Shown piece after piece: positions 7,189 through 27,902 of a stretch of DNA of 33,672 nucleotides. Each line of letters starts with the position of its first letter. Position 1 is the first letter of the stretch. This DNA comes from Deltaproteobacteria bacterium RIFCSPLOWO2_02_FULL_50_16 (GTDB lineage Bacteria; UBA10199; 2-02-FULL-50-16): positions 1 to 33,672 of the forward strand of contig MGSF01000009.1 in assembly GCA_001798715.1 (NCBI GenBank), in the 5' to 3' direction. The position numbers and the translations under genes are program-made. The notes below the pieces were generated by a model. The model saw only the letters and a list, made by a program, of their open reading frames with translations. It had not been told where the DNA came from and did no database searches.

Positions 7189-7212
7189 TATTTGTTTAAA
7201 CTCCCCGCCGAC

Positions 7213-7569
7213 ATGTCCGATCTCAGCCTTATTATCATTTTTCTGATAATCTCCTTGAGTGTCCTGGCCCTACTCAATGGGTTCTCACGTCGCTTAAGCC
7301 CCCCTCCCGTCGAATCCCCCCCCTTTTCTCCGCATGGAGAGGGTGATTTTACACTCAGTGAGAAGGTCACCCCCTTAAATGATCACCTCATGACCTCCGC
7401 CATCACTGCCTTTATCTTCCTGTCGTTTATCCTCCTCCTGCTCCCCCTGGCCATAATCTTTCATTATAAGGTTGTCGAAGGCTATGGGCTCCAACTCCTT
7501 GTCGTCATGCTCCCCCTCTTCGCATTCATGGGACTCATCTTGCTCTTTATCGGAAAAAAAGGGAAATAA
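7213..7569 (+). CDS. Degenerate NuoA-like membrane subunit (ghost complex I)
   Basis: A 118-residue protein with three predicted membrane helices, in the nuoA position of the first gene set. Aligned with the intact NuoA at 16967, the second and third helices match without gaps, but the acidic pair in FDVEVAFLFPW (D71, E73) is L70 and F72 here, and the loop signature YECGIDP (Cys and Asp near the quinone site) is replaced by a Pro/Ser-rich stretch. These acids belong to the E-channel linking quinone chemistry to the pumps, so that role is probably lost. I chose ATG 7213 over an in-frame TTG at 7192. The identity rests on gene order, length, topology and the second-helix match. Confidence 0.72.
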   Translation: MSDLSLIIIFLIISLSVLALLNGFSRRLSPPPVESPPFSPHGEGDFTLSEKVTPLNDHLMTSAITAFIFLSFILLLLPLAIIFHYKVVEGYGLQLLVVMLPLFAFMGLILLFIGKKGK

Positions 7570-7574
7570 ACTCA

Positions 7575-8063
7575 ATGAGTCACCTCCTTCAAAAATGGCC
7601 TAAAAATTTCATCACAAAAAAATTGGCCCGATGGATACACCAAACTCACAATCGTTTTTTTTCTTGTATCCTTCTAGGAGGATCCACTCACGAAATCAAC
7701 TCATCGTATCTCCGAAAAATAGGGGTTTCCATCACCACAAATCCACGACAGGCCGATATCCTTGTCCTCTCGCTCCCATTAACCGAAAAAATGGGTCGAT
7801 GGTCCAGGATCCTCTATGACCAAATGCCTTTCCCCAAGTACACAATCGGCATTGGAAACAATTCGCAAAAGGGTTTCCCTGAAAAGACCTACTCTTTTTG
7901 TTCCCTGGAGGATGTCGGAATCTCCCTCAACCTTCATGTCCCTGATGCCTTAATGAACACAAAGACCCTGATGATGGCGTTTCAACAACTGCGAAATACC
8001 CTTTCCCAAGATATCACACGGGGTGAAGAAGGAGAAGAAAGTGCAGATAAGACACATTTTTGA
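7575..8063 (+). CDS. NuoB-like subunit lacking all N2 cluster cysteines
   Basis: A 162-residue paralogue of NuoB. The intact copy at 17350 has N2 ligands C37, C38, C103 and C132; by alignment these are G36, S37, N96 and A125 here. The fold markers remain: PRQADILVL for [20 protein letters not shown] for RIYDQMCHPKW, and HVP before the lost PGCPPRPE motif. The two cysteines present (31, 109) are not at ligand positions. No cluster N2 can form by the known scheme, so electrons could not reach quinone through it. The frame is intact, with a downstream overlap onto the NuoC-like gene, which argues against decay. It most likely sits at the cytoplasmic membrane interface as a structural subunit. 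Confidence 0.82.
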
Positions 8064-8502
8064 GCACCTTCAGAAGGATTTGTCCTCCGTATTTTTTGAA
8101 TTGCACGAAGACAGTCCTTCCCATGGAGGGGATCCCTTTATCCTTGTTCCGGCAATGAGTCTTCTGCCTGTGTGCGACATTCTTAAAGACATGCAGAGAT
8201 ATGATTTTCAGTGTTTGAGCAACCTGACGGCTGTGGATTTTCAGGATCATTTGAGACTTATCTATCATCTATTTTCCTATACCCATCATCACAGCCTCAC
8301 ACTCACAACGTCGCTATTGCCGCCTCATTACGAGATTGACTCTGTTTCGCGGCTTTGGCCCATTGCCAACTGGTTTGAGCGAGAAGTCTTTGACATGTTT
8401 GGCATACAATTTCGGGGGCATCCCTCTCTCAAGCGTCTCCTGCTACCCCAGCATTGGACAGGATATCCTCTAAGGAAAGACTATGAACGAATGGCTAGGT
8501 GA
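8041..8502 (+). CDS. NuoC-like subunit (ghost complex I)
   Basis: A 153-residue homologue of NuoC (30-kDa subunit), a structural part of the peripheral arm next to NuoB and NuoD. The signature is well kept: [24 protein letters not shown] and then HPSLKRLLL and YPLRKDYE, matching the NuoC domain of the CD fusion at 18708. It is the least altered peripheral subunit of this set. GTG 8041 is preferred because AAGGAG precedes it by six bases; an in-frame GTG at 8023 would add six lysine-rich residues. It overlaps the NuoB-like gene at its start and the NuoD-like gene at its end. The C-D interface appears to be under selection even though catalysis is not. Confidence 0.88.
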
Positions 8503-9589
8503 AGAAAAAAAAGTATGTATTGGTCCTCATCATCCCGTGACCCGGGGGGGAATGAATTTTATTGCCTCCTTGGACGGGGAGACCCTTCGTCAAGCCATTC
8601 CTGAAATAGGATATTGTCACCGTTCCCTGGAAAAAATAGCCGAAAATACCGATTATCAAGGCTTCACAACTTATGCCTCCCAAGCCGATCCCCTCTCTCC
8701 GTACAGCTGCCAATGGAGTTATGTCATGGCCGTTGAAAAGTTAGCAGAAATCACAGTTCCTCGACGGGCCGAGTTTCTTCGCGTCATCGCTATGGAATTA
8801 AACCGCATCACTTCACACCTGCATTTTCTCAGCTTTATGGCTGAAATCATAGGGGCGAAAATTTTAAAGGCCCAGTCCTTCAAGAGGGCCGAAATATTTT
8901 CTCATTACACAACCACCTTTTGTGGTAACGATAATATGTTTTTGCAGATAGGGGGGGTGGTTCGCGACCTGTGTTCCTCGGACTGGGAAACGACCCTTAT
9001 ACAATTTTTAGACCATTTAAAAACCTTTATCGATGAATACTCCTATACGTTGAAAAATAATTATGTCTTTCAGCGACAATTGTCCTTTACAGGGGTCATC
9101 TCCGTTGAAGAAGCGATTCAATACAATCTTGTCGGACCCAATCTTCGAGCCTCTGGACTCGCGTGGGATCTCAGAAAAAACCGGCCCTATTCAATTTACT
9201 CAGAATTGAATCTTGAAATCCCCACGTGTCAGAGAAATAAAGGAGATGCCCATGATCGCGTACAAGTGAGGATTGATGAAATTGCCCAATCGGCCTCCCT
9301 TATCCGGCAATGTCTTGAAAAAATACCTCAGGGTCCCATTCAATGCAAAATCACAGAACCCATAAAACCCAAAACAGGTGAAATCTACAACTGTATCGAG
9401 GGCGTCCGCGGTGACACAGGAACTTATCTTGTCAGTAATGGAACCACTCAACCTCACCGATTAAAATTAAGAACAGGTTCGTTTTCGAGCCTTGCTCTTC
9501 TGGAAAAAATGGGGCGAGAAATCCCCCTCTCTGATTATCTTACTTTGATCGCAAGTCTTGACATCTCCCCTTGGGAGGCGGATCGATAA
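8483..9589 (+). CDS. NuoD-like subunit with altered quinone site (ghost complex I)
   Basis: A 368-residue homologue of NuoD (49-kDa subunit), which in complex I closes the quinone pocket with NuoB. The fold signature is clear: [41 protein letters not shown] and IGGVVRDL. Aligned with the NuoD domain at 18708, the quinone-binding His (H199 there) is R21, the Tyr (Y248) is P70 and the Asp (D300) is I122. These match the residues called His38, Tyr87 and Asp139 in Thermus. Quinone reduction by the standard mechanism looks impossible. C and D are separate genes here, unlike the fused CD downstream. The stop TAA overlaps the next ATG (TAATG). Confidence 0.88.
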
Positions 9590-10773
9590 TGGAAGTATTA
9601 TCCTCTTTTTTCTTAAACAACATCAGTCCTATGGTTTCCATTGGGGCTCAATTAACCTTTATTTTCATCCTCATTTTTGTCATCTTCTTTCCACTCATCA
9701 CCCTGACCTATTGGATCGAACAAGTTATTTATTCTCGTTTCTCAGGAATTCGCGGTGCAGGTCACAGTCTTTACAACATCATTTTCCCCATGAAAATAAT
9801 CACCAAGCTTCTTCAAAAAGAATCTCAAACAGATCCCTACATCGATCGGCCCCTCTTTTGCCTTGCTCCTTATGTTGGTTTTTCAACGGTAGTTTTGACT
9901 TTAATCGTCCTCCCTTTTTCAAGCCACTATGTCTTATCCCATTCTGATTTAGGGGTTCTCTATCTCATCACATTTATATTTCTCATGGGGATCCATGCCC
10001 TCATGGCGGGATGGAGCTCCAATTCCAAATGGGCCCTCATAGGAGCTGTTCGTTCGTTGACCCAATCCCTCTGCGGCATCACTCTCTACGGTCTCGTGAT
10101 AATGATCATCACCCTACAAACCCATTCGCTCTCTATTCAGGACATCATCCAAATGCAGGGGCCCCATCCCTGGCAATGGCTCCTCTTTCTCAGTCCCTTT
10201 ACATTAGCGGCCTTTTTGCTTTCACTCTCCTCCCTCATGATGATCATCGACCAACCCCCTTATGGAACCGCCACATCCTCTTCAGAAATCCATTCGGGAT
10301 ATAAAGGCCATTATACGGGTATTCGTTATTTTGTCCTTACCATCAGTAACAAAGGAGCCTTCTTCATCTTAAGTGCCATGACAACACATCTTTTTTTGGG
10401 GGGCTGGCAAGCGCCAGCCTCCTGGCTGTATTGGGCCGCCGTCTTTTCACCCCAATTTCCCAATATTATTGAAATGGGGGTTTTTTTATTTAAAACCTTA
10501 TGCGTTGTATGGATAATACTCATCCTACAAAACACCCTTCCTCCCCTACGACTGGATCATTTGATAAAACTGACCTGGAAATATCTTATACCTCTTGGTT
10601 TGACAGCATTGGCCGGCACCGCCATTTGGACCTATATTTTCCCTGATGGAAATCTTTTTACTCAGTACTTATTATCTTTACTATTGGTCACCTTTGGAAT
10701 TTATTTTTTCTATCGTCTCCTGTATCATACCTACCTCTCCATCAAACCTAGAATCAAAGGAAAAAAGGCATGA
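9589..10773 (+). CDS. NuoH-like membrane subunit with lost loop motifs (ghost complex I)
   Basis: A 394-residue integral membrane protein with about eight helices, equivalent to NuoH, which joins the membrane arm to the quinone cavity. Conserved landmarks include KIITKLLQKE, LMAGWSSNSKWALIGAVRSL and the LGGW motif. The intact NuoH motif ETNRTPFDLPEGESEIVAG is replaced by DQPPYGTATSSSEIHSG, which removes most of the acids at the mouth of the E-channel, and the ERRGPN motif of the first loop is absent. The ATG at 9589 shares bases with the NuoD-like stop, and GGGAGG at 9574-9579 is a good Shine-Dalgarno sequence. The stop overlaps the following 49-codon gene (ATGA). Confidence 0.85.
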   Translation: MEVLSSFFLNNISPMVSIGAQLTFIFILIFVIFFPLITLTYWIEQVIYSRFSGIRGAGHSLYNIIFPMKIITKLLQKESQTDPYIDRPLFCLAPYVGFSTVVLTLIVLPFSSHYVLSHSDLGVLYLITFIFLMGIHALMAGWSSNSKWALIGAVRSLTQSLCGITLYGLVIMIITLQTHSLSIQDIIQMQGPHPWQWLLFLSPFTLAAFLLSLSSLMMIIDQPPYGTATSSSEIHSGYKGHYTGIRYFVLTISNKGAFFILSAMTTHLFLGGWQAPASWLYWAAVFSPQFPNIIEMGVFLFKTLCVVWIILILQNTLPPLRLDHLIKLTWKYLIPLGLTALAGTAIWTYIFPDGNLFTQYLLSLLLVTFGIYFFYRLLYHTYLSIKPRIKGKKA

Positions 10774-10919
10774 AAAAATATCTCTTTACCCTTATCAAAA
10801 CCTTCGTCATAACACTTGAGGAGCTTTCCATCACTGGTTCCTACTGGATAGTGACTCGCCGCCTTGATCGCCTTTTTTATGCCCCTCAGAAACAAAAGCT
10901 GAATGAGGGAAAATCATGA
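10770..10919 (+). CDS. 49-residue peptide in the nuoI position, no ferredoxin domain
   Basis: A short frame exactly between the H- and J-like genes, overlapping both by ATGA junctions, so translation is almost certainly coupled. The peptide starts MKKYLFTLIKTFVITLEEL, resembling the N-terminal membrane-surface helix of NuoI, and continues with an aromatic-basic stretch (YWIVTRRLDRLFYAP). It has no cysteine, whereas NuoI carries two CxxCxxCxxxCP ferredoxin motifs for clusters N6a and N6b. I infer a NuoI reduced to its anchoring helix, but similarity over so short a span is weak and position is the main evidence. Translation into a tight operon slot argues against chance. Confidence 0.55.
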   Translation: MKKYLFTLIKTFVITLEELSITGSYWIVTRRLDRLFYAPQKQKLNEGKS

Positions 10920-11413
10920 CTCCTTCTATTATCACTTTTTGCCTCCTTACATTGTTCGTCATCGGTTCAGGTCTGATTGTGGCCTTTACTAAAAACATTC
11001 TTCATTCCGTATTTGGCCTGCTCGGTGTTGCCATTTCTATGACTGGATATTTTTTGCTTCTGTCGGCGCCGTGGACGGCCTTGATTTTTATTCTTATTTA
11101 TACGGCACTCACATTTGTTGTTTTTCTCTTTGTAATTTTACTGACTCGGCGAAAGGAAATTATCGCGACCCTTTCTATATCCCATATTGGATATGGTCTT
11201 GTCCTTTCGGGTCTGTTGATTGTCTTTATGTCCTTAAGCCTCCTTCAACTTCCCGGTGTAACAGAAATTCGCGTCGTTGCTCCAGAAATGCCCCTTTTAA
11301 ACCTAGGAAAATCCATGGTGTCCCCTCATTTTATCGTTATTGAGCTCTTCTCTTTGACCCTTGTCATTCTTTTTGTCGGCCTCGTCACTCTCATACGCCG
11401 TGAGGTAAAATAA
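10916..11413 (+). CDS. NuoJ-like membrane subunit (ghost complex I)
   Basis: A 165-residue protein with five predicted helices, in the place and with the length of NuoJ. The family core LIYTALTFVVFLFVILL aligns with [17 protein letters not shown] of the intact copy at 25119: the Tyr is kept, but the Gly after it, part of the helix-3 region whose bulge switches during turnover, is Ala and the neighbours are bulkier. The end, IELFSLTLVILFVGLV, matches the usual [16 protein letters not shown]. Start ATG 10916 overlaps the stop of the 49-residue peptide, and the K-like gene follows after one base. Confidence 0.82.
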   Translation: MTPSIITFCLLTLFVIGSGLIVAFTKNILHSVFGLLGVAISMTGYFLLLSAPWTALIFILIYTALTFVVFLFVILLTRRKEIIATLSISHIGYGLVLSGLLIVFMSLSLLQLPGVTEIRVVAPEMPLLNLGKSMVSPHFIVIELFSLTLVILFVGLVTLIRREVK

Positions 11414-11414
11414 G

Positions 11415-11732
11415 ATGATGCCTCTTTATCCTTTTCTGGTTGTCGCCTCTATTTTGTTGGCATTAGGACTTTTTGTCGTTGTCACACGACGCCATCTTAT
11501 TGCCATCCTCATCGGAATAGAACTCATTCTATGTTCTGCCAGTTTAAATTTGGTTGCCTTCAATCAATTGCTTCATGGAAATTCCACTAGCATTTTAGAG
11601 GGTCACGCCTTCATGGTTTTGATTATTTTACTAACAAGCGCCCGGGTTTCGGTCGCCCTTTCTCTTTGTTTCCTAGTATTTCGTAATTTTAACTCGGCGG
11701 ATGCTCAACATATAATGACCCTTAAAGGATAA
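11415..11732 (+). CDS. NuoK-like subunit with Glu72-to-Arg change (ghost complex I)
   Basis: A 105-residue protein with three helices, homologous to NuoK (MrpC-like). The first key acid is kept (E36 in GIELIL), but the second is not: [10 protein letters not shown] in the intact NuoK (E72) reads TSARVSVALS here, putting R77 in the middle of a membrane helix. In complex I both Glu residues carry protons between the quinone end and the antiporter-like subunits. The loop before this helix is five residues longer, and the C-terminal MTLKG resembles the usual SLMKG. A second ATG follows directly (11418). A positive charge here should block ordinary proton relay. Confidence 0.88.
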   Translation: MMPLYPFLVVASILLALGLFVVVTRRHLIAILIGIELILCSASLNLVAFNQLLHGNSTSILEGHAFMVLIILLTSARVSVALSLCFLVFRNFNSADAQHIMTLKG

Positions 11733-11737
11733 AGGAC

Positions 11738-13825
11738 ATGTTGCTGCCCTTATTAGAAAACATATCTATCGTTATATGGTGGGTTCCTTTTCTTCCTTTG
11801 TTGGCGGCATTTGTCAATGCGCTCATCATCATGTTCTCCCGATCAACCTACCAACCCTGGGCCCATAGAATATCCATTTCTTTTCTCACCTTGTCTTTCT
11901 TCATTACCTTATGTGCTTTTTTTTACATCCAGGGGTTGCCCCCCGACGAACAAGAAAGAATTATCACCTTCTCTTCTTGGCTGTCCCTCCCCTTTCTCTC
12001 TGTGGACTGGGCCTTTTTAATCGATTCCTTCTCCCTTATTTTAATGCTTCTGATTACAGGATTCTCCTGTCTCATTCTCATCTATTCCATCGAGACGATG
12101 AGGCACGATCCTCGTTATGTTCGTTTCTTTTTCATAACAAATCTTACCATAAGCTTTCTCCTGATCACTGTGATGGCCGACAATCTCCTTTTGACTTTTT
12201 TGGGTTGGGAAGGTTTGGCGCTCTGCTCCTTTTTTCTCATTGGTCACTGGCACGGAGAATCCTTTCGGATGGAAAAGGGAAGGCATTATTTTATTATTCA
12301 TCGCATCAGTGACATAGGATTCATCTTGGGGATTCTGGGAATCTTCATTTTTCTCAAAGACCGTGGTTCTCCCACCCTTGATTTTGTCCTCATCCACGAC
12401 CAAATGGCCTCCATAGCCCATACTCTCAGGGGCACGATTCCCCTCTTATCACTTGTAGGCCTCTTTTTTCTCTCTTCCACACTCTTAAAGGTCGGACAGA
12501 TCCCATTTTTTGTCGGACTGTATCATCCCCATCATGCCCCTTTTCCAGCAACCATTCTCATCCAAATCATGGCCTCCTTAATCACAACCAGCTATCTGAT
12601 TCTCCGGCTTCACTTTGTCTTCTCCCACCTGGTGATCCTTCTAAAGATCTTGATCGTGATTGGACTTTTGACGGCCTTTTTGGCGGCCCTCATAAGCCTG
12701 GCCCACAACGATCTTGTCAAAATACTCTCCCTACTCAACATCAGCCAAGCGGGTTTCATTGTTACAAGCCTTGGCCTCTCGGCTTATTGGATCGCCTCTC
12801 TTCATCTGATCTTTCAAGTCATTTTCATGACGGGACTTTTTCTGGGATCGGGTGTGATTCTACATGTCATGAACGGAGAACATGACATTTGTCAAATGGG
12901 TGGGCTAAAAAAATATGTGCCCCATCTTTATTGGCCCTTTCTCCTCTGTCTTTTAGCGCTTATCGGCCTTTTTCCGTTTTCTGGATTTTTTTCACAGAGT
13001 CTGATTTTTTACGAGACATTTGAAAAGGCATTTCCCCTCTGGTTTATCGGGTTGTTGGCCCTTTTCCTTACCTCACTCTCCGCCTCTCGGCTCTTAACAT
13101 TTGTTTTTCTTGGAAAACCCCAAACCAAATCCAATGAAATGCATCTGAGCTATCTCAGCTCTCTTCCCCTTTCCCTAATGATTCCCTTCTTTATTTCTTC
13201 AATTTTGGCTGTCGGCATCGGCATGATTGGCCTTCCCCAAGCCCTGGGATCTCTGGCGGGATGGTATGATCCCCCTTTTATTCAACAATGGCTGGCTCCC
13301 GTCTTTGAATCACCCCTGACTCAAATTCATGAAGGTCCTGCTCCATCTTTTAAAATTCTCGGTCTCTCCGCCGTTTCTCTGGTCATGATCCTGTCAGGTT
13401 GTTGCGTGGGATATTTTTGGTTTCAGAGATTTCAAAAGGGATTGCCTTTGCAATTCCCGGGACAACAGAGAATCACAAAAATCTTAAATCGGGAATTATA
13501 TCTTGAAACCATTTATCACATCATGATCGTCATCCCATTATTAGGACTCAAAAATGCCATCTTTTTTATTGATCGAGTTGTCATAAACCTCATTATTCAT
13601 TTTCTGGTCCAAACATTTCAGGGAATCGCCCGCCTGTGCCGCTTTTGTGATCTGCGTCTCATTGATGGAAGCCTTCGTGGTTTTTCCCGCCTTATTCTTT
13701 TGAGTGGGCAAAAAATACAGCTTTTACAAAACGGAAGTATTCAGAATTATTCTGCCATTATTTTTGCAGGAACTTTATTTTTAATTTTCGGAGGGGTGCT
13801 GTACTATCTCCTAACAGTCTATTGA
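11738..13825 (+). CDS. NuoL-like antiporter subunit with lost distal charged residues (ghost complex I)
   Basis: A 695-residue membrane protein with the NuoL fold, including the long C-terminal lateral helix region. Retained: E158 in FLGWEGLALCS, the Asp in RISDIGF, and K251 in LLKVGQIP. Lost, by alignment with the intact copy at 25926: the His of SALIHAATMV (Q276), the His and Lys of THAFFKACLFL (Q360 and M364), and the Lys of FFSKDEI (Q420). The first half-channel therefore looks intact while the middle and exit half are disabled. AAAGGA precedes the ATG. No frameshift or internal stop is seen over 695 codons. The next gene follows only after a palindromic repeat. Confidence 0.92.
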   Translation: MLLPLLENISIVIWWVPFLPLLAAFVNALIIMFSRSTYQPWAHRISISFLTLSFFITLCAFFYIQGLPPDEQERIITFSSWLSLPFLSVDWAFLIDSFSLILMLLITGFSCLILIYSIETMRHDPRYVRFFFITNLTISFLLITVMADNLLLTFLGWEGLALCSFFLIGHWHGESFRMEKGRHYFIIHRISDIGFILGILGIFIFLKDRGSPTLDFVLIHDQMASIAHTLRGTIPLLSLVGLFFLSSTLLKVGQIPFFVGLYHPHHAPFPATILIQIMASLITTSYLILRLHFVFSHLVILLKILIVIGLLTAFLAALISLAHNDLVKILSLLNISQAGFIVTSLGLSAYWIASLHLIFQVIFMTGLFLGSGVILHVMNGEHDICQMGGLKKYVPHLYWPFLLCLLALIGLFPFSGFFSQSLIFYETFEKAFPLWFIGLLALFLTSLSASRLLTFVFLGKPQTKSNEMHLSYLSSLPLSLMIPFFISSILAVGIGMIGLPQALGSLAGWYDPPFIQQWLAPVFESPLTQIHEGPAPSFKILGLSAVSLVMILSGCCVGYFWFQRFQKGLPLQFPGQQRITKILNRELYLETIYHIMIVIPLLGLKNAIFFIDRVVINLIIHFLVQTFQGIARLCRFCDLRLIDGSLRGFSRLILLSGQKIQLLQNGSIQNYSAIIFAGTLFLIFGGVLYYLLTVY

Positions 13826-13842
13826 CAAACCATGTTTTCCAA

Positions 13843-13963
13843 GGCTGTTGAGAAAGGTCTAGATACGAGGCGGGCGGCTGAAGGCGCGACGCAGGCGTAC
13901 TTGATTGTACGTCGAGGAGCGACCGAAGCCGCCAACGAAGTAGATAGGCCTTTGTCAACAGCC
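13843..13963. repeat. 121-bp imperfect palindromic dispersed-type repeat
   Basis: The arms run GGCTGTTGAGAAAGGTCTA from the left and GGCTGTTGACAAAGGCCTA from the right strand, continue with matched GC-rich segments, and meet at a GTAC(ttgatt)GTAC centre. It fills most of the 164-base gap between the NuoL-like and NuoM-like genes. It looks like a REP/MITE-type interspersed element; similar palindromes recur in many proteobacterial genomes, but I cannot count copies here. In RNA it would form one long hairpin that could attenuate or stabilise the operon mRNA. Confidence 0.75.
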
Positions 13964-13989
13964 TTGCTCATGAACTGAAGAGGTGAATC

Positions 13990-15507
13990 ATGAATTTTCC
14001 CTACCTTTCATTTATAACATTCACTCCCCTCATAGGAGCTGTCTTGATCGCGATAACTCCTATTATTCGAGGATACACACAATGGGTCAAGTGGGTCGCA
14101 TTATTCGTCACAACCCTGCCCCTGATGGTGGCTGGAAAACTCTATCTTCTTTTCAATTCCAAAAACTACGCCCTCCAGTTCGTCGAAGGACCATGGGAAT
14201 GGATTCCTGATTACGCGATACAATATTTCATGGGAATTGATGGATTAGCTATGTCTCTTGTCATTCTCACCTCTTTGGTTGGAATCATCGTCATCATTGC
14301 CTCCTGGGATATAAAACAAAATCCAAAAGGATACTTTTCTCTGTTGTTGGTAACACAATCAGGTCTCACAGGGTTTTTTTGTTCCCTAGATTTTTTCCTG
14401 TGTTTTATATTTTTGATCCTGTCTCTCTTTCCACTCTATGGCCTCATCGGTCTTTGGGGCAAACCTCATGGAGAATCCGTCGCCACCAAATCCCTTTTAT
14501 TTCTATTTTCGGGAAGTATCTTACTCCTTCTTGTAATCATCACCCTTTATTCTTTTACTGAACCTCACACCTTCAACATGGTTTCTTTAACCCAGCAAGA
14601 CGTGCACAAATCCCTTCTAGGTGAATCTTGGTTTCGATATCTTTGCTGGCTTGGCCTTTTGAGCAGTAGCGTTATTTTTATTCCTATTGTTCCTTTTCAT
14701 ACATGGTTCGTCGATGCCGTCGAGGAGGCCCCCGCTCCTGTCAGTGTGATTCTTGCTGCTCTCGTAACAAAGGTAGGCCTCTACGGTTTATTACGATTTA
14801 ACGCCCCCATCTTCCCCGATGCCACCGGCCATTTTGCCTGGTTATTGGCCTTCATGGGAATCCTCAATATCCTTTATAGTACCTTTTGTGCCATGGCACA
14901 AAAAAACCTCAAACGCCTTTTCGCCTATCTCTCCATGGCCTCAATAGGTTTTTGTTTATTGGGAATTGCCACTTTTACGGCTGAAGGAATGACAGGAGCC
15001 GTTTTTCACATCTTGAACCATACCATCGTCTTTACCCTTGTCTTCTTGATAGTGGGAGCCTTGTTCCATCGGGCCCACCAACTTGAAATCCAAAGCTTCG
15101 GAGGATTGGGATCTCTCATCCCCCGCTATGCCCTACTGGCCTCCTTGTCCTTTTTTGCCGTTATGGGATTGCCGGGACTTTCTCCCTTTATCAGCGAAGT
15201 CACCGTTCTTCTTGGCGCTTTTCAAACATGGCGCCTCTTCTCAATCACTTCGTTACTGGGGATGGTTTTTATAGCCGCCGCCCTACTACGGGCCTATCAA
15301 CAAATCTTTTTTGGAAAAACCAATGACCTTTGCCGCGGGTGGCCTGATATTTCTCAAGGAGAAATGATGACCCTATGTCCCTTGCTTCTTATTGTCATTC
15401 TTTGCGGTATCTATCCACAACTTGGAATAGACGTCATCCAAACAACAATATTAAACCTTAACCAAGCCATGCTACCTTTTGTCTCCTATTCATTCATGAA
15501 CTTTTAA
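13990..15507 (+). CDS. NuoM-like antiporter subunit with lost Glu and Lys (ghost complex I)
   Basis: A 505-residue, roughly 14-helix homologue of NuoM. Family landmarks are present: VPFHTWFVDAVEEAPAPVS, the K261 position in VTKVGLYG, LKRLFAYLSM, an ILNHTI His and a conserved Glu in PFISEVTVLLG. Two central residues are gone: the Glu of FWEVMLIPMY (E144 class) is I143 in FLILSLFPLY, and the Lys of AIKVPLFPFHTW (K234 class) is F230. That pair drives proton loading in each antiporter unit, so this unit should not pump normally. AGAGGTG lies seven bases before the ATG, which suggests efficient initiation after the palindrome. The intact counterpart is at 27903. Confidence 0.92.
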   Translation: MNFPYLSFITFTPLIGAVLIAITPIIRGYTQWVKWVALFVTTLPLMVAGKLYLLFNSKNYALQFVEGPWEWIPDYAIQYFMGIDGLAMSLVILTSLVGIIVIIASWDIKQNPKGYFSLLLVTQSGLTGFFCSLDFFLCFIFLILSLFPLYGLIGLWGKPHGESVATKSLLFLFSGSILLLLVIITLYSFTEPHTFNMVSLTQQDVHKSLLGESWFRYLCWLGLLSSSVIFIPIVPFHTWFVDAVEEAPAPVSVILAALVTKVGLYGLLRFNAPIFPDATGHFAWLLAFMGILNILYSTFCAMAQKNLKRLFAYLSMASIGFCLLGIATFTAEGMTGAVFHILNHTIVFTLVFLIVGALFHRAHQLEIQSFGGLGSLIPRYALLASLSFFAVMGLPGLSPFISEVTVLLGAFQTWRLFSITSLLGMVFIAAALLRAYQQIFFGKTNDLCRGWPDISQGEMMTLCPLLLIVILCGIYPQLGIDVIQTTILNLNQAMLPFVSYSFMNF

Positions 15508-15517
15508 ATTGCAACCT

Positions 15518-16945
15518 ATGGCATTTCTAAACGAATTTATCACTTATCTTCCTGAAACCGTTCTTGCCGGAACCTCCGTCTTGCTCATCGTACTCATCAC
15601 CCTCCTGCCCCCTCGAGAGAAAAGTAAACGCGAACCTTTTTCTTATATCGCCCTCCTGGGTCTTATGGGATCGGCCTTTCCCTTACTGGCAGGTCTGGTT
15701 CCGCAACAGGACAACATGAGTATTTTTTTTAAAATCTTCTTTTTGGCTGCGACTTTTTTTGTCGTCCTCTTCTCTCAACACTCAAGGGAGTTGTTCAAAA
15801 CCGATACCGGCACCTATTACCTCCTCCTTATTGGATCCTCACTCGCCCTCCTTATTATTGCCTCAGCAACACATTTTTTAATCCTGTATCTTGCCTTAGA
15901 AATGCTCAGTTTGATGACCTATCTCCTGGTAGGATCCTTAAAAGGCACCCCCCGCTCCTCTGAAGCGGCCATAAAGTACCTCATCTACGGTGGGACGACG
16001 ACGGGGATCATGCTGTATGGCATGACCTTATTTTACGGAATCAGCGGCAGTCTCGCCTTGAATCAAATCGCCGAGATCATGAACCGTCAGACCTCGCTAC
16101 CTATCCTATTTTATGTGGCCCTCTTGATGACCCTGGTCGGCATCGGTTTCAAACTGACCATGGTCCCTTTTCACATGTGGGCCCCGGATACCTATGAGGG
16201 GGCTCCCACTCCTATTGCGGCCTTTTTGGCCCTGATTTCCAAGGCCGCAGGGCTGGTTTTTCTTCTTCGTCTATCCCTTGCCTTGGGAATGATCCCCGAA
16301 GTCGGTGCCCCATTTCTTTCCCCCCTCATTGCCGTGTTGGCCATTGCTACCATGACCGTGGGGAATCTTGGCCTTTTAAGACAAAACAGCATAAAGCGCC
16401 TCCTGGCCTACTCCAGCATGACGCATTTGGGCTACATCCTCATGGGAGGGGTCTCCCTTGAGCCCTCCAACCTCAAAGGCATCTTTTTTTACCTGATCAT
16501 TGAGGCCGTCCTCCACCTGGGCCTCTTCCTCATCATCATCCTATTGAACCATCAAGAAACTCATGAAACCCTCAGTGATTTTCAAGGACTGGCCTTTCGA
16601 GGACGTGTGGGGGCCCTTATGGCCGGGGTCCTCACCCTCTTTGTTATCGGTCTTGCCGGCCTCCCTCCCACCTCGGGTTTTGTCAGTCGATTCCACCTCT
16701 TTGAAACGGCCATCCGATCACAGTGGTTTGGTCTTGCCCTCATCGGGGGAGCCAACAGCCTCCTCTCCCTCTGGGGTTATACAAAGATGATAAAAATCAT
16801 CTATTTTAAAACCAGCCAGAAAATGGCGCCCTTACGTCCTCCAGGATTACGCGATGCATCAATCCTCTTGACCTTCTGCATCGTAACTGTTTATTTAGGC
16901 CTGCAATGGGCCCCCTTGATCCAATGGCTGGATCGGGTCGACTAG
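15518..16945 (+). CDS. nuoN: NuoN, first copy, largely intact
   Basis: A 475-residue antiporter-like subunit of complex I with 14 or so helices. Unlike its neighbours upstream it keeps the key residues: E128 in LYLALEMLSLMTYL, the Lys of LVGIGFKLTMVPFH, the WAPDTYEGAPTP loop and the Lys of LISKAAGLVF. The last-channel residue is Arg (FVSRFHLF), where the second NuoN at 29478 has Lys (FIGKFYLF). By order it closes the ghost set, yet it directly precedes the intact nuoA, so it could serve either complex. ATG 15518 is preferred to a TTG at 15509; only ten bases separate it from the NuoM-like stop. Confidence 0.9.
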   Translation: MAFLNEFITYLPETVLAGTSVLLIVLITLLPPREKSKREPFSYIALLGLMGSAFPLLAGLVPQQDNMSIFFKIFFLAATFFVVLFSQHSRELFKTDTGTYYLLLIGSSLALLIIASATHFLILYLALEMLSLMTYLLVGSLKGTPRSSEAAIKYLIYGGTTTGIMLYGMTLFYGISGSLALNQIAEIMNRQTSLPILFYVALLMTLVGIGFKLTMVPFHMWAPDTYEGAPTPIAAFLALISKAAGLVFLLRLSLALGMIPEVGAPFLSPLIAVLAIATMTVGNLGLLRQNSIKRLLAYSSMTHLGYILMGGVSLEPSNLKGIFFYLIIEAVLHLGLFLIIILLNHQETHETLSDFQGLAFRGRVGALMAGVLTLFVIGLAGLPPTSGFVSRFHLFETAIRSQWFGLALIGGANSLLSLWGYTKMIKIIYFKTSQKMAPLRPPGLRDASILLTFCIVTVYLGLQWAPLIQWLDRVD

Positions 16946-16966
16946 TGGTGTGTGATAGAACTCTGC

Positions 16967-17338
16967 ATGAACAATCCCTATTTAGCTATTTTCTGCCTCT
17001 TTCTCTTTGCCCTCCTCTTGGGGGTGGGTTTTGTCATCATTTCTCATTTTATAGGCCAAAAAAGACCCTCAACGGCCAAGATGATGCCCTATGAATGCGG
17101 GATCGATCCCCTCGGAGCCCCCCGTGCAGAATTTTCCGTAAAATTTTTTCTGGTCGCCATGATCTTTATCGTTTTTGATGTTGAGGTAGCCTTCCTCTTT
17201 CCGTGGGCCGTCCTCTTTAAAGGCTTTATGAAAGCGGGGCTGGGGGGTTTTGTCTTTGCTGAGATGATGATTTTTATGGGAATCTTGTTGATGGGTCTGA
17301 TCTATGTTTATGGCAAAAAAGCCCTGAAATGGGAATAG
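16967..17338 (+). CDS. nuoA: NADH-quinone oxidoreductase subunit A
   Basis: A 123-residue, three-helix subunit next to NuoH, J and K. The quinone-side loop motif YECGIDPLG (43-50) and the acidic helix FDVEVAFLFPW (D71, E73) are both present, so it is fully typical. A GTG at 16952 would add five residues; the ATG at 16967 gives a better family N-terminus. Neither has a strong Shine-Dalgarno sequence, so it may depend on coupling to the preceding nuoN, 21 bases upstream. This is the first gene of the catalytically complete set. Confidence 0.95.
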   Translation: MNNPYLAIFCLFLFALLLGVGFVIISHFIGQKRPSTAKMMPYECGIDPLGAPRAEFSVKFFLVAMIFIVFDVEVAFLFPWAVLFKGFMKAGLGGFVFAEMMIFMGILLMGLIYVYGKKALKWE

Positions 17339-17349
17339 GAGAACCTTCA

Positions 17350-17826
17350 ATGGGTTTGGACAATTTACTGGCCGGCAATGCCATCACCCTAAAACTAAAA
17401 GAGGCTGTTGCCTGGGCCCGTAAATATTCCCTGTGGCCCATGCCTTATGGCACGGCTTGTTGTGCCATTGAATTTATGGGAGTGGTGGCCCCTTATTTTG
17501 ACATCTCCCGATTTGGGGCCGAGTTGGTTCGATTTTCCCCAAGACAATCCGATCTCCTCATGGTGATGGGGACCATCAACTATAAACAAGCCCCTATTCT
17601 AAAAAGGATCTATGACCAGATGTGCCATCCCAAGTGGGTCATCGCCATGGGGGCCTGTGCCACATCTGGAGGATTTTATAATAATTACAGTGTCTTACAA
17701 GGTATCGACGAGATCGTCCCCGTAGATGTCTACATTCCAGGATGTCCGCCACGTCCGGAAGGTATCTTAAATGCCCTCGTCAAACTCCAAGAAAAGATCA
17801 CTCAAGAAGCCCGAAAGGATGTCTAA
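17350..17826 (+). CDS. nuoB: NADH-quinone oxidoreductase subunit B (N2 cluster)
   Basis: A 158-residue subunit holding the [4Fe-4S] cluster N2, which passes electrons to quinone. All ligands are present: C37 and C38 in GTACCAIEF, C103 in MGACATSG and C132 in PGCPPRPE. The YDQM-HPKWVIAMG block and VPVDVYIPGCPP are standard. AGGAG at 17336-17340 stands the right distance before ATG 17350; an in-frame ATG at 17329 inside nuoA would add seven residues and is less likely. It is the reference against which the cysteine-free copy at 7575 was aligned. Confidence 0.96.
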   Translation: MGLDNLLAGNAITLKLKEAVAWARKYSLWPMPYGTACCAIEFMGVVAPYFDISRFGAELVRFSPRQSDLLMVMGTINYKQAPILKRIYDQMCHPKWVIAMGACATSGGFYNNYSVLQGIDEIVPVDVYIPGCPPRPEGILNALVKLQEKITQEARKDV

Positions 17827-17833
17827 AAAATCC

Positions 17834-17847
17834 GGGGGGAGGCCCCC
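17834..17847. other. Short GC hairpin after nuoB
   Basis: GGGGG(gagg)CCCCC stands between the nuoB stop and the secreted repeat-protein gene, with no T-tract after it. It may weakly stabilise or attenuate the mRNA at this junction but is not a standard intrinsic terminator. Confidence 0.3.
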
Positions 17848-17870
17848 TCAAATCAAAAACTGATCAAAAA

Positions 17871-18686
17871 ATGAAGACCCAAAAAAACATAATGCTCCTT
17901 TTTATCCTCATGTCATTTTTGATGATGGGCAAAAATGGGCAGGCCGGGAACCCCATCAAAGAGGGCGATCAACTCCTAGAAGAGGGGCACTTATTACAGG
18001 CGGCCGACACTTATTATCAAGCCTATCTTCAAGATCCCACCCATAAAAAAGCCGATTTACTCCTTTTTAAGACAGGAATCGTCCTTGACCTTGCGGCCCC
18101 CAAACTTTACGAAGACGCCGATCGCAAATGCTATCTGGATAAAAAGACAGAAGAGGCCAATCCTCAATGTTTTGATGATTATGCTCGCCGTTTGAACAAT
18201 CGTTATGGAGACAATGCGTTTTTTTACTGGGCCGATCGTATCGTGATCCAATATGCGGGAAGTCATTTTCAAAAGATCCTGGATGATTTTCCAAAAAGCC
18301 CCCTTTATGCCGATGCCGTCTTCAAGATGTTTCGTGGAAAGAGTCTCATGCAGGGCAATCCTGAAGAGATTACCGATCGCGTCCAACAATGGATTGACAA
18401 CAACAGCAAAAGCAAAATCCTCCCTGAGGCCTGGTTATTACTGGGACGCCTCTATGCCGATTCATGGTGGGTGTATGCCCGTCATACCTTTGTCGCCAGG
18501 GGAGGTGTGGCGCAGATTGGTGGAATTCCTGAAAATGCCGAAATCAGCAAGGGTAAGGGACTGGCCGCCTTTCGGAAGGTCTTTGAAAAATATCCCGACT
18601 CGGCAGAGGCCCCGGTTGCAAAAAAAGAGTTTCAACTGCTAAAAAACAATAAAAATGACGGCTTTATGTATGGGATTTCGTATTGA
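17871..18686 (+). CDS. Secreted TPR-like protein inserted in the nuo operon
   Basis: A 271-residue protein with an N-terminal signal peptide (MKTQKNIMLLFILMSFLMMG, then a likely cut after QAG); no lipobox cysteine. The mature part is helical with repeat-like pairs: EGDQLLEEGHLLQAADTYYQ, DPTHKKADLLLFKTG, HFQKILDDFPKSPLYADAVF and AFRKVFEKYPDSAEAPVAKK, the last two fitting the outer-membrane-lipoprotein/YbgF class of TPR. It is not a known complex I subunit, yet lies between nuoB and nuoCD in the same direction. A periplasmic assembly, stability or supercomplex factor is possible; a chance passenger is the alternative. A longer in-frame extension upstream overlaps nuoB in another frame and is rejected. 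Confidence 0.75.
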   Translation: MKTQKNIMLLFILMSFLMMGKNGQAGNPIKEGDQLLEEGHLLQAADTYYQAYLQDPTHKKADLLLFKTGIVLDLAAPKLYEDADRKCYLDKKTEEANPQCFDDYARRLNNRYGDNAFFYWADRIVIQYAGSHFQKILDDFPKSPLYADAVFKMFRGKSLMQGNPEEITDRVQQWIDNNSKSKILPEAWLLLGRLYADSWWVYARHTFVARGGVAQIGGIPENAEISKGKGLAAFRKVFEKYPDSAEAPVAKKEFQLLKNNKNDGFMYGISY

Positions 18687-18707
18687 GACCCATTGGGATT
18701 TGAACTA

Positions 18708-20420
18708 ATGAATATGCCTCATAACAACATTACCAAAACCCTCATTGAAAAATTTCCTGCCGATGTCATCGAGAGTCATGAGGCCTACGGCGACACAACT
18801 GTCATTGTGAAAAAAGGGCGCATCACTGACATCCTTCGCTTTCTAAAAGAAGAGATCCAACCCTCTTTTGAAATGTTAATCGATCTCTGCGGTGTGGATT
18901 ATCTTCAATGGAAAGATTCGGCTCGTTTTGAAGTGGTTTACCACCTCCTCTCCCTCAAGACCCACGACAGGGTTCGGGTGCGAGCCCCATTGAGTGAAGA
19001 AGACCCCACCATCGATTCAGTGAGCCCGTTATGGAAGGCCGCTGATTGGTATGAACGGGAAGTGTTTGACATGTTTGGCATTATTTTCCATCGTCATCCC
19101 AATCTAAAACGTATTTTGATGTTTGAAGGTTTTGAAGGCCATCCCCTGAGAAAGGATTACCCTGCTGAAAAAAGACAACAAATCCCCACCGCAGAGATCG
19201 ATCTGCTCCATCTGTCCCTTCAAAATCGGCATTTTTCCGAGACCGATCACCTGCCCACAAGGTCCATGATCCTCAATATCGGACCTTCACATCCCGCCAT
19301 GCACGGCGCCCTTCGCTATCAGGTGGAGCTCGATGGTGAAACGATTCACCGGGCTGTGGCTGAAATCGGTTACCTCCATCGGGCCTTTGAAAAACATTCG
19401 GAATCCAGCACCTACACCCAGGTCATTCCTTACACCGACCGCCTCAACTACCTTTCCTCCATGATGAACAATGTGGGCTTTGCCCATGCTGTTGAAAAAA
19501 TCCTGGGCGTAGAGATCCCTCCTCGCGCCAAAATGATTCGTGTTATTGTATGTGAACTCTCCCGCATCATGGATCATTTAGTCTGTCTGGCCGCCGCCTT
19601 TGTCGACCTGGGAGCCCTGACCAATTTCTGGTACTTCTTTGATGCCCGGGAAAAAATTTATGACTGCACGGAAAAACTGGCCGGGGCACGTCTGACCACC
19701 AATTATACACGCATCGGCGGCGTCTGGAGGGACATTTCTCCCGACATCATCACAGGAATCCACAAGGCCTTCAAAGTTTTGGACAAGGCCATTCTGGACG
19801 TCTCTCGCCTTTTAGAGCGCAACCGCATTTTTATTGACCGCACACGGAACGTGGGCATCATCTCCAAGGAAGATGCCGTAAGCTACGGTTATACAGGACC
19901 CTGCCTGAGGGCCTGCGGTGTCCCCTATGACATTCGCAAGGATCAGCCCTACTACGATTATGATCGCTTTGATTTTGATGTCCCCGTTGGCTCGAGGGGG
20001 GATGTCAATGATCGCCTGATGGTTCGCTTTGAAGAGATGCGACAAAGTGCCAAGATCATCCAACAAGCCCTGACTCGTCTCCCCCCCGGCCCGATTATGA
20101 TTGAAGATCCAAAAATCGCACTACCGGCCAAATCAAATGTGTATGGGAGTATTGAGGGCCTGATGAATCACTTCATGATTGTCACCCAGGGCATCTGTCC
20201 TCCCAAGGGTGAGGTTTACTCCGCCACTGAAGCGGCCAATGGTGAATTGGGATTTTATATCGTCAGTGATGGAGGCCCAAGACCCTACCGCGTGCGGTGC
20301 CGCCCCCCTTGCTTCCCTTTAACAGCGTCCTCTGAAAGACTGGTCGAGGGAGGAATGATCGCCGATCTCATTGCTATTGTTGGCAGTTTAAACATTGTCG
20401 TAGGAGAACTCGATAGGTAA
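18708..20420 (+). CDS. nuoCD: NADH-quinone oxidoreductase fused subunits C/D
   Basis: A 570-residue fusion. Residues 1-150 are NuoC ([38 protein letters not shown]), a linker spans about 151-187, and the rest is NuoD. The quinone-site residues are present: H199 in [10 protein letters not shown]248 in RLNYLSS and D300 in [10 protein letters not shown]. Other NuoD blocks, [21 protein letters not shown] and GSRGDVNDR, are typical. It forms the core of the peripheral arm and reduces quinone with NuoB. ATG 18708 follows the TPR-like gene by 21 bases. Fusion here but separate genes in the ghost set suggests that the two sets do not come from a recent simple duplication. Confidence 0.95.
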
Positions 20421-20424
20421 AATT

Positions 20425-20898
20425 ATGATCTTAAAATTTTCAAAAAACTCAAAAACAAAAATTGATGAAATCTTAGAGAGATATCCCAACAAACAGGCTG
20501 CCACCCTCCCCGTCCTTTTTATCGCCCAAAGGGAATTTGGACACCTCTCAAGGGAGGCCATGGAGGCCGTTGCCAAGATCCTGGAAACCTCCTATGCCCA
20601 TGTCTACGGTGTAGCCACTTTTTACACCCTGTATAACAAAAAACCCGTTGGAAAATATCATGTCCAAATTTGCGGCAACCTAAGCTGCAGTATTATGGGG
20701 GGTGAAAACATACAGGAATACCTTAAAAAGAAACTAAAACTGAATTTCGGCGAGACGACACAGGACGGAAAATTCACATTATCATCGGTTGAGTGTCTGG
20801 CTTCCTGCGGCACGGGACCGGCGATGCAGATTAACGAAGCCTACTATGAAAAATTGACGCCTGAAAAGGTTGACGAAATCCTCAACTCACTAAAATAA
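20425..20898 (+). CDS. nuoE: NADH-quinone oxidoreductase subunit E (24-kDa type)
   Basis: A 157-residue thioredoxin-like [2Fe-2S] protein of the NADH-oxidising module. The N1a ligands are C83 and C88 (QICGNLSCS) and C124 and C128 (VECLASCGTGP). The helical N-terminus (LERYPNKQAATLPVLFIAQ, VAKILE, VYGVATFYTLY) is standard. It follows nuoCD after four bases and is directly followed by nuoF. With F and G it shows that this set, unlike the first, can accept electrons from NADH. Confidence 0.95.
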   Translation: MILKFSKNSKTKIDEILERYPNKQAATLPVLFIAQREFGHLSREAMEAVAKILETSYAHVYGVATFYTLYNKKPVGKYHVQICGNLSCSIMGGENIQEYLKKKLKLNFGETTQDGKFTLSSVECLASCGTGPAMQINEAYYEKLTPEKVDEILNSLK

Positions 20899-22239
20899 AT
20901 GGAAACCATCCTGACCCCAAATTTTAATCTCCCTGATTCCCACACCCTCCCTGTCTATGAAAAGACAGGAGGGTACAAGACCCTTCACAAGCTCTTGAAA
21001 ATGAGGCCTGATGAAGTCATTGAAGAAGTCAAGAAATCGGGTCTCAGGGGGCGTGGGGGGGCCGGGTTTGGTACCGGACTCAAATGGAGCTTTGTCCCTA
21101 AAGATCCTCCGGGACCGCGTTATCTCTGCGTTAATGCCGATGAAGGGGAACCGGGCACATTTAAGGATCGCGCCCTCCTGGAAAAAGATCCCCATCGCCT
21201 GATTGAAGGAAGTGTCATGTGTGCCTACGCCATTGGGGCGGCCGTCGGCTATATCTACATTCGCGGCGAGTTTGACCTCCCCTATCGTCGAATAGAGGCC
21301 GCCCTTCAAGAGGCCTATCAAAAAGGCTATTTGGGCAAAAATATCTTGGGTTCCCCGTTTAGCTTTGATTTATATACCCATCAAGGGGCGGGGGCCTACA
21401 TCTGTGGTGAAGAAACGGCACTGCTCAATTCTATCGAAGGGAAGAGGGGGGAGCCGCGCATCAAGCCCCCCTTCCCGGCCATCTCCGGTCTCTTTGGGGC
21501 CCCGACGGTCATCAACAATGTAGAAACCTTATCGGCCCTACCCTACATCATTGAAAAAGGCGCCGAGGCCTATGCCTCCATAGGCACCCCTAAAAGTACG
21601 GGCACAAAACTTTTTTCTGTCAGCGGCCCTGTCAAGAAGCCGGGGGTTTATGAAGTCCCCTTGGGTTATCCCTTGCGAAAATTTCTTGATGAGTATGCCG
21701 GCGGCCTGATGGAGGGTAAGATCTTGAAGGCCGTCATCCCCGGCGGTTCCTCGGTCCCCGTCCTCACGGCCCAAGAGGTCGAGGAGGTCAATCTCGACTA
21801 TGAATCCCTCCAAGAACACGGTTCGATGCTGGGTTCCGGAGGCATGATCGTCATCCCTGATGATTTCTGCATGGTCCATGCCCTGGAAATTTTGGCCCAT
21901 TTTTATTCCCACGAATCCTGCGGCCAATGTTCCCCCTGCCGGGAGGGGACGGCGTGGATCTACAAGATTTTAAAGCGGTTGGAAAAGGGGCAAGGGACCC
22001 CGGAGGATCTGGACCTGCTGATCGATATCAGCAACGGAATGGCGGGACAGACAATCTGCGTCCTCTCCGACGCCCTGGCCATGCCCGTCAAGAGTTTTTT
22101 GGCAAAATTTAAAAATGAGTTTGAAGAACACATTAGTCTGGGATATTGCCCTCATCGCGCCTCGTTTCGCACCTCCGGTGCCCCAACGTATCTGAGCTCG
22201 GATCAGCTCCTCTGGAGCCCCAGGTTCCAGAGTCTCTGA
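20899..22239 (+). CDS. nuoF: NADH-quinone oxidoreductase subunit F (FMN, N3)
   Basis: A 446-residue NADH-binding flavoprotein. [16 protein letters not shown] (about 49-64) binds FMN/NADH, and [13 protein letters not shown] and [16 protein letters not shown] are characteristic. Cluster N3 ligands are in [13 protein letters not shown] and the later TICVLSD cysteine. The family core ends near [10 protein letters not shown]; the remaining 20 or so residues (from HRASFRTSG) are unlike NuoF, and the last eight codons, with the stop, lie in a palindrome at 22215-22296, so the element appears to have replaced or extended the original C-terminus. The end is remote from the FMN site, so activity is probably unaffected. 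Confidence 0.95.
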
Positions 22240-22296
22240 CTCTGGTCTGCGAAGATGCCGACGCTTCAGAGTCCCGACGCTCTGTCGGCGGGGCTC
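22215..22296. repeat. 82-bp imperfect palindrome at the nuoF/nuoG junction
   Basis: The outer arms are GAGCCCC/GGGGCTC; inside them CAGAG and GACTCTG recur in matching order when the two strands are compared, and there are sub-hairpins such as CCAGAGTC(tct)GACTCTGG and CCGAC/GTCGG. It covers the nuoF stop and most of the gap to nuoG, and looks like a small inserted palindromic element. It could lower nuoG expression relative to nuoF or protect mRNA ends. AAGGAG for nuoG follows at 22303-22308. Confidence 0.55.
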
Positions 22297-22318
22297 GGCG
22301 CTAAGGAGATTAGATAAG

Positions 22319-23857: not shown

Positions 23858-25126
23858 ATGGATATCCTGATTTTCATACTCAAGATCGTGATCCCTCCCG
23901 TTCTCGTCCTTAATTTCATTCCTCTTATGATCTGGTTTGAGAGGAAGGGAAGTGCCTACATCCAAGAGAGGCGAGGCCCCAATAGGGCCCACATCCTGGG
24001 AATTCGATTGGGCGGGATCATTCACAATTTTGCCGACGTCATAAAACTCATCACCAAGGAAGATATCATACCTGCCAACGTCAATCGTCTCTATTTTATC
24101 GGCGCCCCCTTGATTGCCATCTTTGTCGGGATCGTCACCATCGCCGTCGTTCCCCTTGCCGATTCCGTCCAAATAGGAGAAAAGCTCGTCCACATCCAAG
24201 TCGCGGATCTCAATGTCGGTATTCTCTATGTTTTTGCCATTTCCTCCCTGGGGGTTTATTCCGTTCTCCTCGCCGGTTGGTCCTCCAATAACAAATACTC
24301 CCTTTTGGGCGGTCTGCGTGCCGCGTCTCAAATGGTCAGCTACGAATTGGCCCTTGGTCTGACGGTGGTCGGTCTCTTTATGTTGGCCGAGTCCGCCAGT
24401 GTCTCCGAAATTGTACGCCATCAGGGTCCTCATGTCCTCCATTGGAATTTCGTCCAACAACCCCTGGCCTTTATCATCTTTTGGATCGCCGTCTTTGCCG
24501 AGACCAACAGGACGCCCTTTGACCTCCCCGAAGGGGAGTCGGAAATCGTGGCGGGTTATCACACGGAATATTCGAGCATGAAATTTGCCCTCTTCTTCAT
24601 GGCCGAATACGCCCACATGGTGGTGGCGGCGGCCCTGATCACGGCCCTCTTTTTCGGCGGGTGGCAGGTGCCCTTTCTGACCACCCTGGACCTCAAGACC
24701 CAGGCCCCATTTTACCTGTACGTGACTGTGCTGACGGTGAGCTTTATTGCCCTATTCTTTGGCCTCCTGCTTCTCTCCCAATTCAAAAAGGGAAAATACA
24801 GGGATGCGCGGGATTACGAGGTCCTCGTCTTTGGGATTCCCCTCTTTCTCCTGGCCCTGGCCGGCGGGGGAAGTGCCATTTTTACAGGTCCCTGGGCCCT
24901 CCCCGAATGGGGTCGCGTCCTTTTCGCGGCCCTTGTTCAAGCAACCAGTTTTGGTATTAAAATGACATTCTTTGCCTTTTTCTTTATCTGGATACGGTGG
25001 ACATTGCCAAGATTCCGCTATGATCAGGTGATGAATTTCGGATGGAAGGGGATGCTGCCCCTGGCCTTGCTCAACATCGTCGTCACCGGGGTGGTATTAC
25101 TATGGAAAGGGAATCATCATGGGTGA
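23858..25126 (+). CDS. nuoH: NADH-quinone oxidoreductase subunit H
   Basis: A 422-residue membrane subunit that forms the quinone entry and the link to the pumps. The motifs are intact: IQERRGPNR, KLITKEDIIP, GWSSNNKYSLLGGLRAASQM, and the ETNRTPFDLPEGESEIVAG loop with all its acids. It starts at the base after the nuoG stop and overlaps nuoJ by eight bases. In most bacteria nuoI sits between H and J; here there is no room for it. The protein is somewhat longer than the common 330 residues, because of extended helices or loops in the C-terminal third. Confidence 0.95.
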   Translation: MDILIFILKIVIPPVLVLNFIPLMIWFERKGSAYIQERRGPNRAHILGIRLGGIIHNFADVIKLITKEDIIPANVNRLYFIGAPLIAIFVGIVTIAVVPLADSVQIGEKLVHIQVADLNVGILYVFAISSLGVYSVLLAGWSSNNKYSLLGGLRAASQMVSYELALGLTVVGLFMLAESASVSEIVRHQGPHVLHWNFVQQPLAFIIFWIAVFAETNRTPFDLPEGESEIVAGYHTEYSSMKFALFFMAEYAHMVVAAALITALFFGGWQVPFLTTLDLKTQAPFYLYVTVLTVSFIALFFGLLLLSQFKKGKYRDARDYEVLVFGIPLFLLALAGGGSAIFTGPWALPEWGRVLFAALVQATSFGIKMTFFAFFFIWIRWTLPRFRYDQVMNFGWKGMLPLALLNIVVTGVVLLWKGNHHG

Positions 25127-25924: not shown

Positions 25925-25925
25925 C

Positions 25926-27899: not shown

Positions 27900-27902
27900 T
27901 TT

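Follow-up and report, generated by a model that had tools for sequence, protein, structure and literature searches.

An arginine at the Glu72 site of a NuoK-like protein in a diverged complex I cluster that adjoins a canonical one

The window analyzed here, a stretch of 33,672 nucleotides (positions 1 to 33,672 of contig MGSF01000009.1, Deltaproteobacteria bacterium RIFCSPLOWO2_02_FULL_50_16), encodes a NuoK-like protein in which arginine stands at the site of one of the two membrane glutamates of that complex I subunit. Does this replacement mark a proton pump that has been re-tuned, a gene adrift, or a complex kept for some task other than pumping? Judging from the gene sequences, the cluster that holds the gene is quite probably a redox-dead, non-pumping paralogue of complex I that has been retained for another role.

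Two adjoining complex I clusters

The window carries two complex I clusters on one strand, designated x (7192-16945) and c (16952-30959); cluster x comprises ten genes (A-like, B-like, C, D, H, J, K, L, M and N). Their features, in window coordinates, are as follows.

7192-7569, + strand: x_A, a strongly diverged NuoA-like protein without the Cys-loop YECG and the TM2 acids
7575-8063, + strand: x_B, NuoB-like; T38, H39, N96 and A125 replace the four N2-cluster cysteines
8023-8502, + strand: x_C, NuoC; PF00329, 134 bits
8483-9589, + strand: x_D, NuoD; PF00346, 195 bits; 28 of 35 charged invariants kept
9571-10773, + strand: x_H, NuoH; PF00146, 185 bits; 10 of 24 charged invariants kept
10770-10919, + strand: 49-codon ORF at the NuoI position, between x_H and x_J
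10916-11413, + strand: x_J, NuoJ; PF00499, 53 bits
11415-11732, + strand: x_K, NuoK, 105 aa; E36 kept, R77 at the E72 site
11738-13825, + strand: x_L, NuoL; PF00361, 118 bits; 10 of 20 charged invariants kept
13990-15507, + strand: x_M, NuoM; PF00361, 166 bits; 13 of 20 charged invariants kept
15509-16945, + strand: x_N, NuoN; PF00361, 206 bits; 10 of 11 charged invariants kept
16952-30959, + strand: cluster c, canonical 14-type: NuoA, B, (TPR), CD, E, F, G, H, J, K, L, M, N

All of these genes share one orientation, 6 bp separate the end of x_N from canonical nuoA, and third-position GC content (GC3) is lower in cluster x (0.489) than in cluster c (0.573). Misassembly of cluster x was considered and rejected, the cluster lying on one contig, in the gene order of its relatives and with overlapping ORFs. 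Its only long gap, 164 bp between x_L and x_M (13826-13989), holds a REP-like inverted repeat, AAGGCTGTTGA ... TCAACAGCCTT. In cluster c, a gene for a TPR-type protein (17742-18686, + strand) lies between canonical nuoB and nuoCD, and related genes adjoin complex I genes in three other genomes (G006, G036 and G007).

Relatives in the class possess an intact 11-subunit cluster with NuoI and without NuoEFG (group A, loci L042-L061), which is followed directly by a group-B nuoA in eight of the 12 loci where the nuoN end is visible. Cluster x has this same order, A-B-C-D-H-I-J-K-L-M-N upstream of a group-B nuoA, with NuoI as a remnant. NuoI is absent inside cluster c as well; the top candidate in the rest of the genome, a NuoI-like gene on contig C24, scores 85 bits to NuoI, which is under the curated threshold, and shares 27% identity with group-A NuoI. 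Trees place the x genes weakly or in conflicting positions, not firmly inside group A, and do not by themselves settle the matter; it is because of gene order and best matches that descent from a group-A complex I appears probable, and that cluster x is best seen as a diverged counterpart of the 11-subunit cluster. No second copy of the degenerate cluster was found in a search of 46 genomes of the class, its own included, with x_K, and a single-protein scan of named genomes with x_L gave 14 pattern matches, none of them a relative.

The Glu72 site of NuoK and losses in the other subunits

Translation of 11415-11732 and alignments bear out the sequence-only reading that the NuoK-like protein keeps E36 and has R77, encoded by CGG, in place of E72. 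In a profile search the protein matches PF00420 (chain 4L) at 49.9 bits against a cut-off of 26.1, and in the alignments R77 occupies the position of E. coli NuoK E72 (LAAAEAAVAL versus LTSARVSVAL). The protein thus has one of the two membrane glutamates that characterize NuoK (E36 and E72), and two of the three charged invariants of the subunit. A frameshift at codon 77 was rejected, since the sequence on either side aligns in frame.

Glutamate occupies both sites in all 30 other homologues of a first alignment (31 sequences), and in the NuoK encoded by cluster c of the same genome (25622-25924). A wider set drew on matches from 60 genomes, including this one; when eight of its 84 rows were left out (seven judged out-of-frame, one partial without the site), 76 distinct sequences remained, with Glu at the E72 site in 73, Arg in the window sequence, Gln in G030 and Met in G007. 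Eighty named loci picked by NuoN similarity in an alignment scan yielded 73 NuoK profile matches, 15 of which were removed as having no E36 column and judged out-of-frame; the 58 readable sequences have 57 Glu and one Ser, the latter in an Omnitrophica locus (L094). The x_K search of the 46 class genomes, 17 of which match at 1e-12, revealed no other Arg at this site among the sequences read. Overall, the E72 site hardly ever varies; Glu has been lost from it more than once, and Arg is met solely in the window sequence. The Ser-bearing Omnitrophica NuoK lies at L094:5727-6098, in a cluster whose other subunits look canonical. Exceptions at the E36 site are Gln in G030, Ala in G007, Val in L184 (genome G046) and Asp in L181 (genome G058), and the L184 protein has Val at this site yet Glu at E72.

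Losses in the other subunits were scored at columns invariant in all relatives and in cluster c, with the relatives serving as leave-one-out controls; in these, the lowest fraction of charged invariants kept was 0.73 to 1.00, depending on the subunit. The placing of individual residues in TM5, TM7, TM8, TM11 and TM12 is assumed throughout, as are the E. coli residue numbers used for comparison other than those given below with a source. The most diverged protein, x_A, has a weak colinear match to the NuoA profile (11 bits), none of the four charged invariants and, in the Pfam search, no NuoA match. The NuoB profile finds x_B at 45.5 bits (E 1e-15, in a search of three sequences); no Pfam match was found at 1e-3, PF01058 scoring 13.3 bits, below its cut-off. 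The protein keeps four of 10 charged invariants and none of the four N2 cysteines (C44T, C45H, C110N, C139A), ligands on which a working complex I depends. The protein x_H has lost 14 of its 24 charged invariants, among them acids of the E-channel and quinone loop that mark a working enzyme (E163I, E215I, D222G, E225T, E227S and E250N, cluster-c numbering). By the same numbering x_L has lost H276Q, H360Q, K364M, K420Q and D421S, and keeps its TM5 Glu and K251; in x_M both the TM5 Glu (E145I) and the TM7 Lys (K225F) are gone. Twenty of 28 invariants are kept by x_C, including nine of 13 charged ones, and x_N keeps its TM5 Glu, TM7 Lys and TM8 Lys, with Arg for the TM12 Lys. New residues E332 and H336 occur in the TM11 segment of x_N; they align by eye with the H338/K342 region of NuoL (which we take to be the E. 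coli numbers for that segment), and x_L has lost both residues of that region.

At the NuoI position the 49-codon ORF is joined by ATGA overlaps to its neighbors, its start overlapping the x_H stop and its stop the x_J start. The ferredoxin domain is absent from it, so that neither of the two ferredoxin motifs of NuoI is found in cluster x; residues 1 to 26 look like the anchor helix at the N terminus of group-A NuoI. In fixed register this likeness is reached by three of 20000 shuffles, the register having been taken from the alignment itself, and in a free profile search the score is weak, 45 of 2000 shuffles scoring as high. The assignments of x_A and of the NuoI remnant are accordingly to be read as weak matches.

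R77, then, is one among many lost invariants of cluster x and not an isolated change. The earlier view that the exchange is directed, unlike random decay, does not fit this pattern: all along the cluster charged invariants have given way, in most cases to neutral residues, and the other sequences that lack E72 carry Gln, Met or Ser at that site.

Selection, respiratory setting and recurrence in the class

Most genes of cluster x lie on long branches. Branches from the root of group A to the tip, compared with the relatives' median, are longer in x for B (3.33 versus 0.68), D (1.55 versus 0.49), H (1.98 versus 0.88), J (2.12 versus 1.14), L (1.93 versus 0.80) and M (1.36 versus 0.58), and mildly so for K (0.89 versus 0.52); no lengthening was found by this measure for N (1.14 versus 1.08) or C (0.99 versus 1.03). 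There are nevertheless no stops in the 3162 codons of the cluster, set against simulated neutral substitution of the same genes, which produced about 31 stops at 81% identity and about 67 at 54%, and gave no stop-free run in 60 from 96% identity downward. This comparison argues that translation of the x genes was selected for over most of the branch, with which the overlapping ORF junctions agree. The genes thus seem to have been under purifying selection, which may have ended late. The open frames do argue against neutral decay, for cluster x as a whole and not for site 77.

The genome of the window has an ATP synthase c subunit; no COX1 was found in it, nor in G007, G030, G024 or G036, and a relative of the same order (G001) has COX1 together with a group-A cluster with canonical NuoK. 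Complex I may have been relaxed when respiration with oxygen was lost. That loss is not sufficient, because G024 and G036 keep their complex I without COX1. In genome G000, contig C86 carries NuoB-, D- and H-type genes with the look of a group 4 hydrogenase, near an ATP synthase c gene.

Comparable losses recur in two other genomes of the class, G030 and G007. These were counted at 54 charged invariants of K, L, M and N, with G024 and G036, of the same family (f8) as G030 and G007, as controls. Cluster x has lost 19, G030 22 and G007 18, versus three in G024 and six in G036. Nine sites are lost in x, G030 and G007 alike, versus 2.9 expected (5e-5 in a permutation test that assumes every invariant site equally likely to be lost); pairwise values for shared losses among the three are 0.001 to 0.012. 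The common sites are E72 of K; H117 and K420 of L; E145, K225, H239, H313 and R453 of M; and K405 of N, which is Arg in all three. Both controls keep eight of the nine, and the TM5 Glu, TM7 Lys and TM8 Lys of NuoN are kept in x, G030 and G007.

The G030 genome is 96% complete, and its NuoD- and NuoH-type matches are confined to one diverged set; NuoK, L and M of this genome have lost axis residues, and its NuoB has kept the cysteines. The G007 genome is 99% complete and has J, K, L, M and N next to a TPR gene; A, B, C, D and H were not found beside them, and the sole NuoB-, D- and H-type matches are on another contig (C29), whose layout looks like that of a group 4 hydrogenase or Hyf. The loci concerned (L191 in G030, L193 in G007) are open-frame clusters without NuoK E36 and E72 and without the axis residues of NuoM. 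In the L and N trees G007 joins G036 (support 0.93 and 0.80) and G030 is drawn beside G024; because the two are paired with different controls, these trees argue for separate losses. The M tree joins G007 to G030 (0.934), which may reflect long-branch attraction. On this evidence there are probably two or three loss events in the class, cluster x being one of them.

These observations bear on the possibility of plain decay, in which cluster x is a drifting relic in an organism without heme-copper oxidase and R77 is random. The breadth of the losses across the cluster, its lower GC3 and the lack of COX1 in a genome whose same-order relative G001 has it are all in keeping with such a history. 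On the other hand, ten full-length ORFs and a coupled NuoI remnant without a stop at such divergence, the retention of most invariants by NuoN, NuoD and NuoC, and the loss of many of the same residues in other lineages make simple decay quite improbable.

Possible role and comparison with known systems

In one current model, protonation of E36/E72 in NuoK changes the K217-E133 pair of NuoN, which then signals to K234-E144 of NuoM; the same E. coli numbering also covers E157 of NuoH and D79 of NuoA (PMC13324432). The Glu-to-Arg charge reversal remarked on earlier is real and, by that model, should break the proton axis; the suggestion that the axis still works, re-tuned, found no support. A partner for R77 had been proposed in an acid of the J- or L-like protein. 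No co-varying acid was found in either, none having been gained in the hydrophobic segments of x_J or x_L. NuoL is the distal subunit of the membrane arm, and the neighbor across the axis from NuoK is NuoN; x_N keeps its TM5 Glu (E131 in x). That NuoN, not NuoL, is this neighbor is supported by the Mrp cation/proton antiporter, where MrpC, the homologue of the K subunit, carries conserved H37 and H40 for the two essential Glu, and where the TM5 Glu of MrpD lines the cavity close to H40 (PMC7419157).

Cluster x, read as a redox-dead and non-pumping paralogue, would have lost electron transfer with the N2 ligands of NuoB, the ferredoxin domain of NuoI and the quinone loop of NuoH. In its membrane arm the input (acids of NuoA and NuoH), the relay (E72 of NuoK) and the output (Glu and Lys of NuoM) are gone, with NuoN alone intact. 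R77 would set a permanent positive charge beside E36 of x_K and near the TM5 Glu of NuoN, and would tie that Glu up in a salt bridge, closing the link from H/J/K to N. The complex would be expected to assemble, without electron transfer and presumably without proton pumping; its kept role may be that of a structural partner or stabilizer of the neighboring complex I, or of an ion path formed by NuoN only. The well-kept NuoN and NuoD/C imply that some ion or binding activity may survive. Nothing relevant on a redox-dead complex I was found in the literature searched, which does not in itself prove absence.

A broader view, offered as speculation and rather unlikely in its entirety, is that the class has disarmed and kept complex I at least twice, perhaps three times, that the remainder of NuoN would be a redox-independent module, and that Arg77 would plug the connection between E-channel and NuoN. 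Such a module, consisting of the NuoN TM5 Glu, TM7 Lys and TM8 Lys with Arg for the TM12 Lys, would be disconnected from both neighbors, from NuoK through the missing E72 and from NuoM through the missing Glu and Lys, and might act as a regulated proton path or a structural platform.

Two further alternatives would have the x genes serve a working enzyme. The 6-bp spacing to canonical nuoA in a co-directional region would suit a hybrid in which the x membrane subunits, as an alternative membrane arm, sit on the canonical peripheral arm (NuoA, B, E-G, I); we consider this highly unlikely, given that cluster c supplies all of canonical H, J, K, L, M and N with residues intact, that A-, B-, C- and D-like genes are retained in x itself, and that x_H is without quinone-loop acids. 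Scarcely credible is an adaptive Arg77 paired with a new acid of J or L in a functioning proton-pumping complex: E36 is kept and replacing a Glu codon (GAG/GAA) by CGG takes two or more base changes, but the acid is missing, the N2 ligands, the ferredoxin part of NuoI, the E-channel and the NuoM Glu and Lys are gone, and Gln, Met or Ser occupy the E72 site elsewhere.

The coupling mechanism of complex I is debated, and natural redox-dead complexes with a surviving membrane arm would reveal the axis residues that stay important in the absence of redox chemistry; repeated loss of the same sites, with NuoN spared, would amount to a natural mutagenesis experiment. If real at the protein level, the complex of cluster x would stand as a pseudo-enzyme counterpart to complex I, itself among the largest of respiratory complexes.

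Cluster x is a known kind of system in an unusual variant. With bacterial complex I (NDH-1) it shares the gene order A B C D H (I) J K L M N and, in x_K, the fold family, E36 and R25 of NuoK/ND4L (PF00420); it differs in that E72 is Arg and that redox and axis residues are gone across the complex. The 11-subunit complex I of group A is like x in gene content, order and position directly upstream of a 14-type cluster; unlike x, it keeps NuoI, the N2 cysteines, the E-channel and both NuoK Glu. The G030 and G007 clusters resemble x in their open frames, in the loss of NuoK E72, of the NuoM TM5 Glu and TM7 Lys and of the NuoL TM12 Lys, and in Arg for the NuoN TM12 Lys; unlike x, they derive from the other (group-B) complex I. 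The Mrp antiporter, a redox-free relative of the membrane arm, is like x in having a K homologue without both essential Glu; it is a set of MrpA-G and is not known to have NuoB, C or D counterparts. It has no NuoH counterpart (PMC7419157), whereas cluster x keeps C, D and H and has lost residues of L and M.
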